Below, piece after piece: positions 49,482-64,000 of a DNA stretch of 64,000 bases. The stretch lies in the NCBI GenBank assembly GCA_001414345.1, contig LLCB01000268.1, positions 1 to 64,000 of the forward strand. The letters run 5' to 3'. The DNA comes from Hymenoscyphus infarciens (taxonomy: Eukaryota > Ascomycota > Leotiomycetes > Helotiales > Helotiaceae). Numbering within the stretch: the first letter of the stretch is position 1; the number at the start of each line of letters is the position of its first letter. The translations under genes were made by a program, and so were the position numbers. The notes under the pieces were generated by a model. The model worked only from the letters and a program-made list of their open reading frames with translations, searched no databases and was not told the origin of the DNA.

Positions 49482-51329
49482 ATGTTAATCACCAACGACG
49501 CACTCTCGTTACTCCTTCCCATCGCTGTCGTTGTGTCCTTTGCCCACTGGGTTTTCTCTCGATTCTTCTGGCGTCATGCCATTCCATCGACGATCCCATG
49601 GGCAGGCGTCAACAGTCCTAGCTCCTTCTCTCGAGCTCGGGCAACCCTCCGAAGCTTGTTAGACACTCGCAGTCTCCTAGTCGAATCCTACACCAAGGTT
49701 CCTCCCACTGTTGTGGTTTCAAAGCAGTAACTAACCGATTACAGTACTCCCAAAATGGCCTGCCCTATGTTTTACCAAATGTCATCTCCGGTCCAGAGGT
49801 GGTTTTGCCTCAACCTATGATGGATTGGTTATTACAACAACCCGATAGCGTGCTTGATCAGAACGAGGTCAATCGAGATTTCCTTCAAGCCGATTACACC
49901 ATGCTTCATCCAAAGGTGGTCACAGACGCAGTCCATGCTGAGGTCATCCGAAAGGTTCTGACGAGACGACTGGGTGAATTTACTGGTGATGTGCTCGAAG
50001 AGGTGGATTTTGCCTTCAGAAAGGCGTGGGGAGTTGACACAAACAATTGGAAGACCGTCACTGCCTATGATACCATGTCCGAAGTCATTACCAGAATTTC
50101 CAATCGAGTCTTGGTTGGCTTGCCACTATGTAAGCATAATTATATCCAACTCCGCTCAACCGCTAATTGTATTCAAGGTCGAAACGAAGACTATCTTTAC
50201 TATTCCTCCAGGTTCGCCCGATTTGTGATTCTGGAGTCTGCTGCAATCCACCTGTTCCCACACTTTTTGAGATCGTAAGTTTGGTCATATTAGATTTCAG
50301 ACCCATGACTGACCATCTCAGGATTGTTGCACCGATTGTAACCATGTTCGACTATCGACGTTACCTCCGCATGGCGAAGCATATCATCCCCATTTGGAAG
50401 CGCCGAGCCTCTGCTCCAATTCAAGATGATAAGCAAAAGGTGATTATATTTTGCCCCTCCAGAAATCGTGACCAGTCAGTTAATTTGTATCAGAGCGACT
50501 ATGTTCAATGGTCTCTCGATCTCGCAGATGACGAACGTGACCCAGAGGAACGCTCCTGTAATATGATTTCGAGAAGACTTGCGGCTCTGACTTTTGCCGC
50601 AATTCAATCCTCGGTCATTACCTCTTGCAACCTCCTCCTGGATCTGGCCCACAGCGACCGCACCCCTGACCTTTTCAAGCTCATTCAAGAAGAGGTGAGT
50701 ATGGAACTCGAGAATGAGAATGGTGCTTGGAACAAGATTTCTCTCTCCCGTATGGTAATTCTGGACAGTACACTTCGCGAAAGCATGCGACTGGGTGGGT
50801 TTGTCAGTCGTGGAGTATTGAAGACAGTATCTGCGAAGGATGGCATTAAACTCCCTGGTCCTCACGGCGTACATCTGCCATTTGGTACCAAGGTGGGTAT
50901 TCATGCTTATCCCGTACACTACGATGAAGCTATATATCCTCGAGCAAAGCAATTTGAACCATTGCGATTTTGCGAGATCGATACAGCCGAGGAGGATACT
51001 GAGGGAAAGACTGGAGCATCCGGAAATAGAGGCACACCCTTGGTCAGCACTTCTCCAACTTTCATGGGATTCTCTCATGGTCGACATGCTTGGTATGTTT
51101 CCCCTCCAAGCTCTTATAATAGGATGCCATTTTACTAACTGTTCCACTTCACAGTCCCGGTCGCTTCTTCGCAACCCAGCAACTCAAGCTAGTCCTCGCC
51201 TACATCGCCCTCAATTACGAAATCTTCCCCATCGCCGAGCGCCCTCAAAACAACTGGTTCATCGGAAGTTCTGGTCCTCCTCTCGATGCAAAGATTACGA
51301 TTCGTCGTCGGCCCGGAACAGTGGCATGA
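49482..51329 (+). CDS. Cytochrome P450 monooxygenase, 6 exons
   Basis: Predicted 529-residue microsomal P450. Exons are 49482-49697, 49745-50129, 50178-50274, 50322-50439, 50494-51092 and 51155-51329. All five introns are GT-AG, 47-62 nt, most with CTAAC/CTGAC branch sites. Residues 8-25 form an N-terminal membrane anchor. The I-helix segment is near 295-320 (FAAIQSS, lacking the usual AGxxT threonine pair in standard form). ExxR is E368-S-M-R371. The heme loop FSHGRHACPGRFFA carries Cys472, whose codon is rebuilt across intron 5. FAAI(Q/H)(S/T)(S/T) in place of AGxxTT is seen in some fungal P450s of secondary metabolism; the substrate cannot be told. Intron 4 is 54 nt and open, so an isoform retaining it would stay in frame. 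No pathway partners are adjacent. Confidence 0.88.
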
Positions 51330-51955
51330 TTCTTTCTACAGAGAAAGTCACGACTTCTCCACTCGACTCTCTCACTTACGAAATCTGTACTTGTACCTCT
51401 CTTTACTCTCTCTCGACATTGCGAAAATGATACCCCCGAACTCATTACATTCTTACCATTCGACCCATTCTTTCTGGCTGGATTTGATTCTCTCTCTTTT
51501 GTTTTTCTTTCGATACATGATGGAGGATTTTCTAGATTTTGGTAGCAAACGTAACCTCACTAGCGGCATTTTCTACATTTTGGTAGTAGGGTAGGGAGAT
51601 TATAATATGGTTTGATATTGGTGGGGGAATATTATTAGATATTGACTTTTGCTTGTGCTTGCTCTCATTTGCTGTTTGTCATGGATTCTCGAAAGTCTCT
51701 TTGTTGTTGTGCTGGGTGGGTTTCATGGGCCGGGTTGAGGGGTTGTGGTTTAATGTGGTTTAATGTGCACCTTTTCTTTTTGCTTTCAAAATAAAAGATG
51801 CTATTACGGTGTGGTGATTGTTTTGTGGAGCGAGTTGGTGGTGGTTGGTAATGAAATCTTTTGCGTTTTTTGTGCTCCGAGCTCACCGTTCTTTGTCTTA
51901 CGTAATATGTTAAGAGGTGAGTGGGTGGTCTTCAATTCTCTCATTTAACTTCTCA
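51330..51955. other. Convergent intergenic region
   Basis: Lies between the ends of the P450 gene (plus) and the minus-strand gene whose stop is at 51956. It is T-rich, with short frames only. It should hold both 3' untranslated regions. No repeat was recognised. Confidence 0.5.
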
Positions 51956-54009
51956 TCAGGATTCTAAAAATTCTTTCAAAATTATTTCCCTCTGCGCCTT
52001 CGATAACACGCCTGTGAACCAATACTTGGCGAAGAAATCGAGAACAAAGTAAATAAGGACGAGCACCCCAAGTGTAGCATCCGCTACAGTTTCACCGCCA
52101 AGTCAGTTGGTGATTGGTCCAGTTTGTTTATTTAAGTTGATGTATACTTTCATTCATGGTCTATAGCTGTCTAAATATACATAGAAAACCCAGCTATGCA
52201 CCCTTTTGGTTACCCTTCACAGCCTCATTAGTCTGTCTCATTCCATACCAGCCTGCTATGAAAAGGGCTGCCAAAACCAGATGACTAAGATATGTAAGTG
52301 AAATACACAATTCTTTTATGAAAAGACTTACTTCTGAACAAAATATCTAGCCACAGGACTCCCCCTAACATCGCGAAACTTCCCCTTCCACCAACCCCAA
52401 CCAGTGTTTTGGCTTTCCCCGCCTTGGTCAGCCTAGCACTCTAGAGAGGATAGGCTACCCCTCTCTATTAGGAAAGGAGAGGATAGGCTAATTTCACTTA
52501 CAGGCTAGGCTGAATTAGGTAGGAGAGATACTAAATTTAGATAGGAGAGGTAAGGAAGACTAAAAGATAGGGCTAGGTAAGGAGAGGTGCTAGGGAGGAT
52601 AGGATAGGATAGGAAGTATATAAGTAAAAAGCATTAAAACAAGTAAAAAGTAATAAAAAGTACTAATATTATAGACTAATTTAAGAAGTATTAAAAACAA
52701 TAATATTATTAAAGCTACTAAAAGACGAGATATTATACCTAAATTACGTATTTCCTAGTAGATTAGTAACGACCTAATTCTCTTTATCCTACCACTTGCC
52801 TTTCAAGTCCTTTTAAACGGCACTAAATTAAGTGCTCTACCAGGTACTTGATTTACTTAGTCCCAGGCGTAATAGTCTATAACAGGGCCTCCTAAATAAA
52901 CCCTGCTTTACTGGGTCTCGCTATGGACTAATTCGCCTAGGACGAAGTACTATAGTAAAACCCCTGTTTTTAGGTACCGATTAGAGACTAATATTATATG
53001 CTTTTCTTAGGTAGCACCACTCCTGCTAAATCTACTAATAACACTATAAATAATATATCTGAGGCTGGTATATACCCTGCCTAGCCTCCTCTGTAGGCTA
53101 GGAAAGGCCACCCCGATACCTTGGATAGGAAAGGATAGGCGGAACAAATTTCGGAATAGGATCGGAGTGGCTAGGAGAAGTGATATATTAGGATAGGATT
53201 AGGCGGGATAGCCTCAAAATAGAGGTAGGAAGGAGAAGGATCGTTAAGGTAGGATAGGATAATAGATTAGGCGGGGAAACCCAAAACACTGACCCTAACC
53301 CACTCTTCTTTAAACCTTGTTAGTAATGGTACCAATATTAAAGTTTGGTCAACTTACCCCCTCCTATCCTCCTCCTCCCCCTTCTTCTTCTCCTCCGCTG
53401 CCTGCGTCTTCTCCTTCACTCTCTCTCGCAGCCTTCAATCGCGTTAGGGCTCTTGTCAGATGTAACACAGTAGCATGATACGTACTCATTGAGCTCCAGT
53501 TGCACCCTATTACAAGACAAAATTAGTTCTGTGGTGATGCCACGGAGTTCAAGCTCACTTACATCTCCTTAATGTTTGATTCGCTTAGAAGTTCATTGAT
53601 ATTAGCCATGCCTCCCTGCTTCTGCTGTGAAGCTGGATACACTTACAAGAGTGTTGTTGAGTCGATTCTGAGTACGGAAAATAGGGACGGTTGTCAGCGG
53701 AAAGTGATGAATACTTGATCGGAGGTGAAATGACTGACGCGTCTTGGATTTTCTTCTCCCTAGAAAGAATTAGAAATGTTCAAGAATGCTATTGTCATAC
53801 TATACGTACAATGACTTAATACTTGTCTTCCTGGAAGAGGGAGAGAGAGAGAAATTAGCAAGTCACTTGATAACAGCGATTCAGCTAAGTTACTAACGAT
53901 TCTTTGAGGGAAGATTCTCTGCGGTACACAGTCAGCAAAAACTAGATGAATGAAGGATCTCATAGGGAAGCCGCGCAGATCCGCCCAACCTCAACTTCCC
54001 CGTCCGCAT
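51956..54009 (-). pseudogene. Heptad-microexon coiled-coil membrane gene, broken by a MITE
   Basis: Model on the minus strand: 53990-54009, then six 21-nt exons (53898-53918, 53810-53830, 53739-53759, 53647-53667, 53563-53583, 53486-53506), then 53358-53432, 53292-53307 joined to 52332-52401 (split by the MITE), 52214-52284 and 51956-52083. Every intron is GT-AG, 47-130 nt, most with a branch motif (for example TACTAAC before 53308). Exons 2-9 all run 1+3n+2, so each 21-nt exon adds one heptad: ESSLKES, KTSIKSL, EKKIQDA, IDSTTLF, ESNIKEM, VQLELNE. Hydrophobics favour heptad positions 4 and 7. A charged Lys/Glu helix follows, then GWGWWKGKF and two membrane segments (HLVLAALFIAGWY and TLGVLVLIYFVLDFF). 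The unbroken product would be 165 residues. Family unknown. Skipping the last intron gives a shorter end at 52194. Confidence 0.55.
52402..53291. mobile_element. hAT-type MITE (890 bp) inside an exon
   Basis: Terminal inverted repeats begin CAGTGTTTTGGCTTTCCCCG at the left and CAGTGTTTTGGGTTTCCCCG at the right (reverse strand). The 8-bp target duplication is ACCCCAAC (52394-52401) and ACCCTAAC (53292-53299), differing by one C-to-T. No transposase frame is present. Many AGGATAGG/GGCTAGG words occur near both ends. It interrupts the GWGWW-coding exon of the minus-strand gene. Confidence 0.82.
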
Positions 54010-54602
54010 CACGAAAGTCCGCTCTACAGCAGAAAATAGATCGAATGAATTGACAGCTTTGAGAAAACTTGCCTCTACAGGAAGTTTCCAAGGAACTCTT
54101 CGTTTGCATCAGGTATTTTCAATGGTTTCTCATTCTTTGATTTTACAGTCCACTGTCGCATTGTTCCTCACAAACAGTTTCAGCATTATGAGAACTTGCA
54201 AGTATCATCCTTTCCCCCTGTATTCTGCATTCATAATAATATTCATTTCGGGCATTGAATTAACTGTTTCCTGGGCCATGGTCTCGTGAAGAACGTGCAC
54301 CCAATTTGGGCTTCTCTTGAATGGCTTGATTCATACAAGTTTTTGTATATTTGCCCACACAAAACTTTGGGTCACTGAGGTATTTGGATCTCCTCATATT
54401 CAATTATTCTTTTTTTTTGGACATTGGACAAAAGCGAGGAGTATCCCATCGATAACCAATTTTCGTACGATAAGCACCACCTCAATTCGAAAGCATCAAA
54501 TCTTTATGCCTTCCCCCAGTTTTGAGAGTAGCAACGGTCACACATTGGAAAATACTGACTTAACCAGCCAAATACCCAAGATTCTCGTCCACTTTTTTCT
54601 CT
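54010..54602. other. Spacer upstream of the microexon gene
   Basis: Lies between two minus-strand genes. Plus-strand open frames (54050-54289 and 54317-54661) carry no motif and are probably chance. Further 5' exons of the microexon gene could lie here: the segment just above 54009 stays open and has an acceptor-like CTGCTGTAG near 54025-54033. Confidence 0.4.
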
Positions 54603-55186: not shown

Positions 55187-55679
55187 CTTTGCGTCGGGAG
55201 TTGAGGTTGAATTTCCTGTTTGACATGGGAATCATCGGGTCAAATACCTGTGCTTGAAGAGTTAGTGTTGAGCTACGGGGTTCTTAGCGGCGAGTTCTTG
55301 TGTCATTTTAGCGATCTTCAATTAGTGTAATTCTGAAATTTAGGCCATGAAAACACTGCCTCATGGTCAAATACTTAGGTATCCTGAGGTGGCTCGGGAG
55401 ATGCCACCAGATGCTCACTAGAAACATTATTTCCAAGAATAACTTCGCTTACAGGGTTGAAGTACGAGCGGTTAAGTACCCTAATTGGGAATAGCCGTGA
55501 AACTAGCGGTATGGGTCGGTCGGATTGTTACTCCGACGCCGTCTTTGGACCTAAATAAGCGTACCCCGGAACTTGGGTCAAATCCTTCTGCACTGCCCAC
55601 TGCATCCATGATATAAGTCCGTAAAAGTAGAATTCTAAGTCAAAAATCGCCAGAACACTTGAACACCAACAATCTCATC
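55187..55679. other. Divergent promoter region
   Basis: Lies between the minus-strand membrane gene and the plus-strand gene at 55680. A TATAAG box is at 55612-55617, 63 bp before that ATG, followed by an A/C-rich leader. No other element was recognised. Confidence 0.45.
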
Positions 55680-56345
55680 ATGGCTCCAATAAACTACCAA
55701 GTCAAGCTCTCAAACTTTGCACGCAGCAAAGCTACCATAACACCTTCCAACCCCTCCTTTCCTTCCTATACAGCCGACTTCACCTGGCTATTCAGCAAAA
55801 AACCAACTCCCAGCATCCTCCTCCACCATGTTCCGCAGAGTTCCCAAGAATTTTCGTCTGGGGCGCCTGCACCTGATAAACCAACCACAGTAGGGGCTAT
55901 TGACCTTGACCTTTTCTCCCTCTCAAAACCAATATATATATCATTCCAAGACCCCAAAACAGCTCCCTACAGCGCACCACCCTGGATCCCCTTTGAAGTA
56001 AACAACAAATGGACAACCAACGGCTTCGTGGTCACTCTTCCTAGAGAAGATGGAGAAGCAGGAGAGGGAAAGAAGTACTGCTGGAAAAGGACAGCCAATC
56101 TAAATAACGGAAAGAAACAGAACCCTGTTATGAGAAAGATTGAATGGCTGCACCTCAAGTTAATGGACGACGAGGGAAATACTATTGCGACTTTTATTCA
56201 CGATTGGGCGCCGGGATGGAATCGTGGGGAGTTTGTTTTTGAGGAGAACCAGAAAGGAACGGCCGTGGGGTTTGAGAAGTTGGTTATTCTTAGTGGGCTG
56301 GGGGTTGTGGAGTATGTTCGGAAGGTTTCTGGGTGGAGTTGGTAA
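55680..56345 (+). CDS. Intron-less fungal protein, unknown function
   Basis: The product is 221 residues. The start ATG (55680) has a good context (CATCATGGC) and follows the TATAAG box. There is no signal peptide and no membrane segment, so it is probably cytosolic. The sequence is rich in aromatics, with YCWKRT near residue 126, an IEWLHLKLMD segment near 147, FIHDWAPGWNRGEF near 164 and a C-terminal LVILSGLGVVEYVRK strand. The run of alternating strands, with W/YK, a DxxGN turn and a hydrophobic last strand, recalls tubby-like/LURP barrel proteins found widely in fungi, but this is only a pattern impression. A complete, undamaged gene. Confidence 0.6.
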   Translation: MAPINYQVKLSNFARSKATITPSNPSFPSYTADFTWLFSKKPTPSILLHHVPQSSQEFSSGAPAPDKPTTVGAIDLDLFSLSKPIYISFQDPKTAPYSAPPWIPFEVNNKWTTNGFVVTLPREDGEAGEGKKYCWKRTANLNNGKKQNPVMRKIEWLHLKLMDDEGNTIATFIHDWAPGWNRGEFVFEENQKGTAVGFEKLVILSGLGVVEYVRKVSGWSW

Positions 56346-59996: not shown

Positions 59997-62900
59997 TTAA
60001 TAGGCTCCCTTCCTAAAACTCCACCCGGGACTGTCAACAAGTACAACCGGAGATCTTCCTGATAAAACCGGCGTCCCAGACTCCAGCGAAAACCCCTCAA
60101 CCTTCGCCCCTTCTTTCCCATAAGCCCACAACATCAATCCAACCCAATTAGTCCCCTTATAATTCAGAATTCCTTCAGGAACAGGGAAGCGTGTCTGCGG
60201 GCCAATATTAGCTATATATTTGCCGAATTGCCAACCGTTGACGTATAGGAGGGCACGATATCCTGTAGCAGCAGTCGAATTCTTAAACACGAAAGAGAGT
60301 GGGATATCCCATTTCTCGCTCGGGAGAGCAAGAGAAAATTTTGCTGTGTAGTAGTTTACTCCCGCCGCTTTGAGACCGGCGTAGGGACTCCCAGAAGTAA
60401 GAACTTCAGCAGGTGGGTTGGGAGCGGTGAAACCCTGACGTTCAGCTGAGAAACCGCCTTCATTTAGTGGTCCACGGATTTGATCCACGTAATCTTCACC
60501 TCCCAGGTTTCCGGTGAGTTTCCAGTATATGGGCGTTTTACCGGTGCTGTTTGAGCCAGTGAGTGCATAGTCAATGATGCCGCGGGGAGATTTCATGTCG
60601 TCAGCGCCAGGGGTGTCTTCTTCAAGACCCATGTTGTCTACTATGACGGTGAGGATATAAGTGCTATCTGTGGTGATTGATGGTATGCTGTATGTCGCAT
60701 TGCTCCATTCGCTTTCCATTTCGCCAGGAAATGATCCAATAAGGGTGCCGTTGAGAAACACCGAAGATGCGAATGCCCAGCCACCACGGGTCGAGATGTA
60801 TAGAGAACTCTCTTGCCCAGTTGAAGTGAAAGCACCGCGGTAGATGAGAGCACCGACGTGAAAACCATAATCGCTTCCGTAGAGCGATACGGGTGTCAAA
60901 AGAGGCATTCCAGCTGGGTTTGTTGTCTTAATATGATCGGCAACGACCCAGAGACTGTCATCGTAATCGGACTTGATTTCGGGCAATGAATCAACATAGC
61001 TCCATTCAAGCCCCGAGAGATTGGGAAGATCTAGATCAAGTGCTGGCAATCGTATCTCCGTTTCTGGGTAAGCCTTTTCTTCCCCATTGATGAAAAGCTT
61101 TGTTATGTCTGCCGGTGCCCCAATCACTTCAATTGTTGTAGAGGTGTTGAAATCTGCAGATACGTAAAGGGACCCATCTGATATAGAAGCATTTCTGACA
61201 AGATATCCCGCTTTGAGAATTACGGATTCTGGGTTAAGATGCGAAGTCCCATATGCTGCGCCAATATCCGGAACCCAATAGTCGTATGCTGAGTCTCGGT
61301 CTGTTGACATTAGTATGCTAGGAAGAAACCTGCCCACTGCAAACTCACCAAGGATATAAACTGTGAACGATCCTATTTGAATCACCTTTCGTGTCGTGTC
61401 AGTGATGCATTGAACAACCCAATTCCCTCCTATTAATTTGGTCACAACTCCAGCACCCTCAACAACCACCGGTTCCGATGCTAAATTGAAGGCCATCTCG
61501 TGCCTTTCTCCGGTATCCCCATAAACCAAAAGGACCGTCTTATCGATATACTGTTTCCAGGTAAAAATTTCAGCGGTGGAGTAAAGCACATTGAGGCCTG
61601 CAAAATAGTCGCTGACATGCACTTTTGAATCTCGACCCTTTAAGATCAAAGATCCACCGAGTTGAGGAACAAGAAGCTGCCCCACCGATGTTGAAAACTC
61701 AATTGTGTAGTTTGTTATTGCCTGAGAAGCATAGTCAAGGTGTCTTACAACATAGAAATTTCCATGCGTACCGTTTCCAACGAGTAGAGTGACGGCGATT
61801 TCTTTGGTAGTGCTGTATACAAGATTCGTGTAGTTGATATTCGGTGTGGCGGTAATATATCCCGGAGAGACTTTCAGCATTTGAGCTTGAAGTTTCAACT
61901 CGCTATACTTTTCTCTGTTCAAGGCACGCCCGTCTTCCTCGATGGCGGAGCCGTAGTCGTAAGAAGTATATCCTTCTGGTTGACTAATGCCACCCCAATT
62001 TGTTCCTCCAAAGATCTTAGAATTTTCTTAGTACTGCATTCTCATCCAAGTTCTTCGTGTCAAACTTACCATATACTATAAGAACTTCTGATTAGTGGGT
62101 GCTACAGTCAAAAGTTATGGCTCATACCTTTACAGAAGACTTACAAGATTCAAGAAAGTAGTTCCAGCAGAAAATAAATTCTTGTAGAAAACCCGTTGAA
62201 ACTCATATCCCAACAGCTCTGAGCATTTCTCAAACCCAGGCCCACCCCAAGCATCAAATGACCCCGCTTGAAACTTTGGAAAATTAGTTTTGATATTCAA
62301 AGAACTTTGCTAAGGGACCAACCTCGACAACCGCATTAGGTGTGTTTGGGGATTGCTTCAGATGCAGTGCACGCCAGGTGGTTGGTAAGAAATTCGCTGG
62401 CCATACTGTGGGGTTCGACTAGAAAGCTTGTCAGATTCAAACATTCGATTCTCAACTTTGATAATTGCACCTACACAGTCGAATCTCAGTGGGTAGCCAT
62501 CATATCCCTACACAAAAATCAGCAAATAACACCAATTCTCGTGGTTATCTTGATGTCTCACGTAAATATCAACATCTCCCTGCCCAGTTCCTGGAGCAAA
62601 GTAGCCCAAGGGATTCACATCATTAGAAATGAAAGGAACCACTATTCCAGCATTCCTGGCTTGATCTTCCACATACTGCATGTAATCTGTTTGAGGAAAA
62701 GGTTTGATGTAGCCAGACCGGCTGTATTCATTTTCTGGCTGCCATAGTATGATAGGCCCTCCTTCTGTGATTTGATATTTGGCGATAATCTCGCCGATTT
62801 TGGCCATGTAACTTGAGAAGATGTTAGTTGGGTGCGCGTTTTGGATTTCTTTGAGGATTTTACTTGTCCGTGGCTGCCAAATAATCCGGGTCTGAGGTCC

Positions 62901-63419
62901 GTAACCGTCCAGTAATTCGTTGCAACCAACCCGGGAACCCACCACCTGTCACCTCAGCATTAATATAAGGTCCTGGCCTCTGGAAATAGTCAGCTTTGAA
63001 ATGGAAGGATTTCATGGGATTTGGCGTACGGCAAGAAGGTAAATTCCAGCTTCAGAAGCAGCTTCGATGAAAGGCACCAGATCAAATACGCCGTCGGCCT
63101 TGAACTCTCCCTGTTTATGTTCAAGCAAAGCCCACATTGTGTAAAAGCTCACACAATTGAAACCCATAGCTTTTATCTTTTGAAAGACATCCAAATAAAG
63201 GGAGGCTACCGGTAGTCGGAATGGATGAACTTCACCACTGAAAAACATGATTCGCTCTCCATGGATAAACAGCGAATGTTGATCCCACGTTACTATGTTT
63301 TGCAGCAATGCTCGTTTTGCTGGGTCATTTGGCATTTGAATTGAAAGGCGGGACGGTTGTTGACTAAAAGACAGCGCATGGCCCGAAAGGGCCCACGCCA
63401 ATAGACTGGAAAATTTCAT
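59997..63419 (-). CDS. Secreted beta-galactosidase, GH35, 8 exons
   Basis: Hydrolyses terminal beta-galactosyl residues of lactose and plant galactans outside the cell. 1012 residues, near the usual length of fungal LacA enzymes. Exons (minus): 63030-63419, 62864-62979, 62562-62811, 62475-62507, 62323-62418, 62145-62273, 62070-62075 and 59997-62015. Introns are 49-69 nt, all GT-AG, most with CTAAC/CTGAC. Signal peptide about residues 1-18. RPGPYINAE near 131. Acid/base E197 in WQPENEYS. Nucleophile E295 is the last residue of exon 5 and FQAG starts exon 6. [13 protein letters not shown] is assembled across the 6-nt exon 7. Exon 8 encodes the end of the barrel and the long beta-sandwich part. 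No damage was seen. Gene symbol is left open because several LacA paralogues exist in such fungi. Confidence 0.9.
62070..62075 (-). other. 6-nt microexon of the GH35 gene
   Basis: TATATG (minus strand) between an acceptor TTATAG and a donor GTAAGT. It supplies Tyr-Met between NL (end of exon 6) and IFGGTNWGG (exon 8), completing the NLYM(I/T)FGGTNWG motif of the family. Flanking introns are 69 nt (62076-62144) and 54 nt (62016-62069). Confidence 0.72.
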
Positions 63420-64000
63420 CGCGATTGATGCTCAAGAGTACCTATGAAGACAATTTCGAAGACCCAGATTGAAATAGCGAGATGTTGGAGGAGGGAGAGA
63501 ATTCCCTCTATATGACATGTTGTTGCTCACTGTCATCCCATCGTGGGTTTCTTTCCCCGCCATCCGCGACGTGCGGGGTCATGTTTATACCGATACCTAC
63601 CTATCTGGTGATCTTCCCATGAAGGACGTGATAAGATTGCTGAAGATAGGAGAACCTTGAATCAATCCAAAGGTTCCAATTGTCCAATGATATCATGGAC
63701 ATAATTGAGGAGAACCAGGTACGGATGATGTTTCGGAAGATAGATCGTGCCATGATTGGGGCGGCTAGTAAACAAAAAATAGCGTATGCCAGGAGCAGGC
63801 TCTACCGGGACGGAAAAAAGTTCCTTATTTACACCTCTTAAAACAATGCGGAATTGTAGGAGAACTGTATATTTAAAAACTCAGAGAGTGCCTATAACTA
63901 TTAATAAGTTAGATTAGAATCGTTCTATATTTTTTTATACATTTTTCTCACCTCACGCATGCTGCTGACATAATAATCGGCCCGGAGTAAGAGACGCGCG
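63420..64000. other. Upstream region of the GH35 gene
   Basis: Contains the candidate repressor sites noted separately and a GGCTAG word (63763-63768) that fits the XlnR-type GGCTAR consensus. No gene was recognised in this stretch, which runs to the window end. Confidence 0.4.
63555..63578. promoter_or_regulatory. Paired CreA/Cre1-like sites
   Basis: CCCCGC (63555-63560) and GCGGGG (63573-63578) form an inverted pair about 140-160 bp upstream of the GH35 start. Both match SYGGRG, the binding consensus of the carbon-catabolite repressor CreA, in opposite orientations. Repression of this gene by glucose is inference. Confidence 0.4.

Follow-up and report, generated by a model that had tools for sequence, protein, structure and literature searches.

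In animals, fibrillar collagen genes are divided into 54-bp exons of Gly-X-Y triplets, and arrays of micro-exons are known. Schistosome MEGs carry runs of very short exons, which are mostly multiples of three and hard for automatic annotation; the excerpted account gives exons of 3–81 bp (6–81 in its text), most of them 15 bp, with introns of 0.1–5 kb and secreted proteins as products (PMC10526429). The aphid bicycle genes form a large insect family of putative effectors with CYC motifs and ~17 exons on average, and the excerpted sections describe numerous internal exons of unusually small size, nearly always in phase 2, and a structure more recognisable than the sequence (PMC9168663). Among filamentous fungi, Trichoderma virens Xlr2 contains a single regulated 20-nt micro-exon that was overlooked by annotation; according to the excerpt, its authors state that no functional micro-exon had previously been described in filamentous fungi, earlier fungal micro-exons having been predicted, with tests only in fission yeast (PMC11121469). 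Micro-exons are furthermore mentioned in the abstract on P450 genes of the white-rot fungus Phanerochaete chrysosporium (PMC1184071), and fibrillar collagen genes were compared for the relation of exon to repeat from an excerpt of PMC4450265.

We analysed 64,000 nucleotides of the Hymenoscyphus infarciens genome (positions 1 to 64,000 of contig LLCB01000268.1, assembly GCA_001414345.1; hereafter the window). A sequence-only reading of this DNA had placed an array of 21-nt exons on the minus strand. All six intervals were found where it had put them, each exactly 21 nt between AG and GT:

53898..53918, minus strand: 21-nt exon 1, ESSLKES; AG/GTTAGT, upstream branch CTGAC
53810..53830, minus strand: 21-nt exon 2, KTSIKSL; AG/GTACGT, branch CTAAT
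53739..53759, minus strand: 21-nt exon 3, EKKIQDA; AG/GTCAGT, branch CTAAT
53647..53667, minus strand: 21-nt exon 4, IDSTTLF; AG/GTAAGT, branch CTGAC
53563..53583, minus strand: 21-nt exon 5, ESNIKEM; AG/GTAAGT, branch CTAAT
53486..53506, minus strand: 21-nt exon 6, VQLELNE; AG/GTACGT, branch CTAAT; the heptad register shifts here

By its splice signals the locus thus contains six consecutive exons of ≤30 nt, in multiples of three and of uniform phase. The closest precedents are the schistosome MEGs and the phase-2 aphid bicycle genes, as far as the excerpts characterise them. Consecutive very short exons in multiples of three are shared with the MEGs; unlike those, all six exons here are 21 nt long and the introns between them measure 50–71 nt, outside the MEG range of 0.1–5 kb. 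Small exons and phase-2 uniformity are shared with the bicycle genes, from which the fungal locus differs in being single copy, in its strictly equal 21-nt exons and in its coil-like product; the CYC motif of that family was not found, the predicted peptides being without cysteine. Exon length appears tied to a structural repeat of the protein, as in fibrillar collagen, but the unit would be a coil heptad in 21 nt rather than a 54-bp Gly-X-Y exon. The P. chrysosporium P450 genes and Xlr2, in the parts excerpted, resemble the locus in that micro-exons occur in a fungus, while an array of six and a repeat unit set it apart from Xlr2. Among the open-licence papers listed we found neither an array of 21-nt exons nor a gene in heptad-per-exon form, in agreement with the earlier statement that no fungal gene of this design is known to have been described.

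We consider it rather probable that the locus is a genuine single-copy gene, whose product would form a coiled coil encoded partly by phase-2 21-nt micro-exons, one heptad each, that arose by old serial duplication. As DNA signals the array is genuine; since no relative was found, we infer its splicing, coding use and origin from the anatomy and statistics of the DNA, which were observed directly. The introns between the six exons are 67, 50, 71, 63 and 56 nt long, and the intron ahead of exon 1 (53995-53919, 77 nt) has a weaker donor, GTTGAG. GTNNGT follows all six 21-nt exons. Seven GTNNGT motifs lie in the stretch 53918 to 53340, each of which closes either a 21-nt exon or a downstream 75-nt exon. 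Donors alternate with branch motifs from 53918 to 53486, a single CTRAY lying between adjacent donors, the exception being two CTRAY between 53485 and 53357. The acceptor is the first AG past CTRAY in all six introns that precede 21-nt exons. Hence, the splice signals of the array leave little choice. Intron definition is the rule for short fungal introns, and with introns this short, carrying strong donors and branch sites, the spliceosome would define introns, not exons; 21-nt exons would be tolerated for that reason.

The sequence-only reading had itself warned that, with short introns, freedom in choosing splice sites could create part of the pattern. As a rival explanation, the constant length would come from choosing among many GT and AG. 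Judged by AG alone, one to four alternative acceptors (giving exons of 9–60 nt) are in reach for five of the six exons, exon 4 having a single AG that yields an exon in that range at its donor. The warning is fair for the plain dinucleotides: when any GT and any AG were accepted, with introns of 40–110 nt, frame ignored and 15 lengths tried, the same window gave constant-length chains of 6 at 15 and 24 nt, of 7 at 20 and 22 nt, and of 8 at 22 and 45 nt. It does not hold with GTNNGT donors, for which the chain of six is unmatched, the best at any other length from 6 to 90 nt in the window being 3. In 60 simulated windows (first-order Markov chain, 2-kb blocks; maximum over lengths 6–90, both strands), the longest GTNNGT chain reached 2 exons in 39 windows and 3 exons in 21. 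The looser GTNNG donor gave a maximum of 3 in 29 windows and 4 in 30, and a chain of 6 in 1 of the 60. A combined rule (GTNNGT donor, CTRAY motif, nearest following AG as acceptor) was then applied to the window and 20 ten-kilobase genome stretches (264 kb, or 528 kb when both strands are counted). The sole chain of at least 3 exons was 21-21-21-21-21-75, which is the present gene, with 12 further exons of ≤90 nt outside the six of the chain. This low-choice rule finds 21-nt exons 2 to 6 and misses exon 1 because its upstream donor is GTTGAG; branch motif and first AG fit every intron of the array. On the GTNNGT simulations and the 264-kb scan we reject splice-site freedom as the cause, and we regard an artefact of this kind as highly improbable.

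Across the whole genome, YAG-N(L)-GTAAGT occurs 2004, 1674, 1428 and 1643 times for L = 20, 21, 22 and 24, compared with 849, 680, 834 and 717 for reversed-pattern controls, i.e. ~1.7–2.5 times the reversed pattern; many of the matches listed are near-identical repeats. There is no sign of a genome-wide habit of 21-nt exons. A pair of matches to this type of pattern lying 245 bp apart (C14) has no CTRAY within 400 bp downstream.

The gene is larger than first noted, with a 75-nt exon, an 890-bp hAT-like MITE and hydrophobic-tail exons beyond the array, and possible exons ahead of it:

54176..54186, minus strand: possible first coding exon, 11 nt, with ATG and a phase 2 end; donor GTTTGT at 54175, in-frame join
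53996..54097, minus strand: possible second exon, 102 nt, holding the ATG at 54009; open in the frame of the array, donor GTTGAG
53358..53432, minus strand: 75-nt exon LRERVKEKTQAAEEKKKGEEEDRR, highly charged; GTAAGT donor at 53357, phase 2
53292..53307, minus strand: left part of the next exon, with the left target-site copy of the MITE (in-frame stop); TACTAAC branch at 53323, AG at 53308
52402..53291, minus strand: hAT-like MITE, 890 bp, ends CAGTGTTTTGG..CCAAAACACTG; 8-bp target copies alike at 7/8
52332..52401, minus strand: right-hand portion of the MITE-interrupted exon, open in the frame of the gene; donor GTAAGT at 52331
52194..52284, minus strand: final coding exon, which carries hydrophobic segment HLVLAALFIAGWYGM and a short tail and ends at a TAG stop; preceded by a 47-nt intron GTAAGT..TTAG

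Translation may start at 54186 rather than 54009, because the 11-nt and 102-nt exons keep the frame and the 78-nt intron between them has the same signals (a CTGAT branch, with the first AG past it at 54098). The intron between exon 6 and the 75-nt exon measures 53 nt. Here the second of the two motifs, CTAAC, was taken as the branch site, since the AGs a few bases past the first CTRAY would give an intron of <40 nt. The last intron joins in phase 2 and has CTTAC as its branch motif in place of CTRAY. For a 19-residue segment the usual hydropathy cut-off is about 1.6; the tail scores 1.31 over 19 residues and peaks at 1.65 over 15, a stretch that spans the splice junction. The predicted hydrophobic tail is possibly membrane-anchoring.

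The reading frame is kept from the ATG at 54009 through the array and the 75-nt exon, and nine of nine modelled exon ends fall after codon base 2, both as the sequence-only reading had it for the array. Joining the 14-nt start, the array and the 75-nt exon left one frame open, with 1 stop and 4 stops in the other two frames of the same strand; on the reverse strand of the joined sequence, one frame in three is likewise open. An open frame is weak coding evidence, because it arises in about 10% of composition-matched sequences of the joined kind (20% for the array by itself). GC content does not differ clearly between exons and introns. Coding is nevertheless judged probable, mainly because every length is divisible by three and the phase never changes. 

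The preference for hydrophobic residues at positions 4 and 7, reported earlier as the a/d pattern of a coiled coil, is significant over the six exons (P 0.012, corrected for the choice of register) and stronger in the first five (P 0.0002, also register-corrected, the five being a post hoc subset whose choice is uncorrected). Exon 6 departs from the register. Hence, the proposal that exon unit and structural unit coincide survives for five or more of the exons, each supplying one heptad of the predicted coil.

We reject a recent tandem duplication of units comprising exon and intron, as the introns are unlike, the best exon pairs agree at 11/21 bases and the spacing of units is variable. An old duplication of the phase-2 unit would instead have produced the array serially from one unit, with intron similarity since lost; this is the weakest step of the proposed mechanism. 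The four best exon peptides (ESSLKES, KTSIKSL, EKKIQDA and ESNIKEM) are more similar to one another than in 5000/5000 core-preserving shuffles, and the best three give P 0.0002. Part of this likeness may be convergence, given the preference of coils for K and E at particular positions. On the other side, the six exons taken together show no significant similarity (P 0.30 for peptides against core-preserving shuffles, P 0.31 for nucleotides), and z values for the 15 intron pairs range from -1.6 to 2.4, the introns being mutually unlike. Furthermore, when the peptide was divided into heptads in all seven registers, that of the exons ranked fifth (score -5, compared with 5 for the best), and the internal repeat therefore does not point to the exon borders. 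Exon duplication, as the sequence-only reading had suggested, is thus weakly supported.

A different history would have the coil encoded at first by one long exon or a small number of them, with later introns entering one heptad after another at an identical codon position, so that 21 nt would be the spacing between insertion sites and not the length of a duplicated unit. Introns without residual similarity, six exons no more alike than core-preserving shuffles, an exon register that is not the best, and phase 2 in modelled introns outside the 21-nt exons too would all fit. Against it, the exon ends have no visible insertion-site consensus, the introns lack the mutual likeness that recent introner copies would show, and four of the exon peptides are alike. 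We consider intron gain unlikely, and old duplication of a phase-2 unit is preferred over gain at equivalent sites by a modest margin.

Under the preferred reading of duplicated units, gain, loss or skipping of a unit would keep both the reading frame and the register of the coil, because each unit is seven codons with phase 2 at both ends. It is conceivable, and compatible with that reading, that the cell makes use of this by skipping some of the 21-nt exons, giving coils that differ in length without a shift of register, the length-tunable coil that the sequence-only reading had also put forward. Whichever of the six exons were kept, frame and register would be preserved, and a micro-exon switch has been reported in Trichoderma Xlr2, according to the excerpted text (PMC11121469). 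The six donors are uniformly GTNNGT, which speaks against regulation of this kind, and we think it improbable.

The MITE bears on what the gene makes today. We take it to be a hAT-like element from its CAGTG end and 8-bp target site, features of that superfamily. At least 103 aligned pieces of the family, including the present copy, were found in the genome of the fungus itself (from the best 40 of 418 candidates); the nearest other near-full-length copy among the matches listed is 93% identical, some partial pieces being closer. The insertion looks fairly recent, given this identity and target copies alike at 7/8. Two products can be drawn. Splicing of the short intron (53357-53308) would lead to the stop in the left target copy of the MITE, with loss of the hydrophobic tail. 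Alternatively, a 945-nt intron starting at 53357 would use an AG at 52413, which falls within the end of the MITE, 18 nt beyond CTGAC at 52431; this would keep the frame to the tail. In either case, an AG roughly four bases or less from the branch motif is skipped as too close. The near acceptor at 53308 has a perfect branch site and looks stronger than that at 52413.

The protein may once have ended in a membrane-anchoring helix, with the MITE now preceding the tail, such that the product of today would either be truncated or depend on the long intron ending in the terminal repeat of the MITE. A decaying gene, in which the array is real and spliced while the C-terminal part has been cut off and the product does not work, is a possibility we take seriously without favouring it. 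The in-frame stop reached through acceptor 53308 ahead of the hydrophobic tail and the fairly recent look of the insertion are what decay would leave; splice signals and frame look intact on both sides of the MITE, however, and the 945-nt intron keeps the frame to the tail. More tentatively than for the gene itself, we propose that the heptad-per-exon modules tune the length of the coil and that the MITE is read as an intron with the acceptor in its own terminal repeat, a combination that seems somewhat doubtful.

The left end of the MITE and the target copy ending in GT create a GTCAGT donor at 53293. Copies of this MITE might act as introns, because GTCAGT lies at the left end and CTGAC (52431) with AG (52413) at the right.

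Relatives were sought in several collections. Neither the 72-residue spliced peptide (1 candidate) nor the same peptide joined to the tail with X between (5 candidates) had a homologue among 5.8 billion proteins. In the control, a neighbouring 224-residue ORF (143 candidates) matched a single protein, from Hymenoscyphus fraxineus, with 66% identity, hence fungal proteins of at least Hymenoscyphus are present in the collection. Absence from protein collections says little, as gene finders likely miss genes of 7-codon exons. In Pfam, none of three pieces scored above the gathering score (best E 0.026, Resolvase), one of the pieces being the tail in another frame. No relative was found in the PDB, the best matches being ZapB and haemagglutinin chains (E 0.27), or elsewhere in the genome of the fungus, the window itself being the sole match.

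If transcripts confirm the model, the gene would be a clear non-animal case in which an exon equals a structural unit, at a scale of 21 nt, and comparing the number of units between relatives would allow the old question of exon unit and protein module to be tested in a fungus. The case would further suggest that fungal genome annotation can miss micro-exon genes, because a collection that holds the H. fraxineus match to the neighbouring ORF gave no relative here.

That neighbour, a long open frame at 55617-56345 on the plus strand, is the one with the 66% match in H. fraxineus and can serve as a marker of synteny and kinship; this single match suggests a helotialean fungus, related to the genus that causes ash dieback. 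By ORF reading, several pieces at 49622-51430 on the plus strand look like cytochrome P450, and ORFs at 59997-63431 on the minus strand look like a multi-exon beta-galactosidase.
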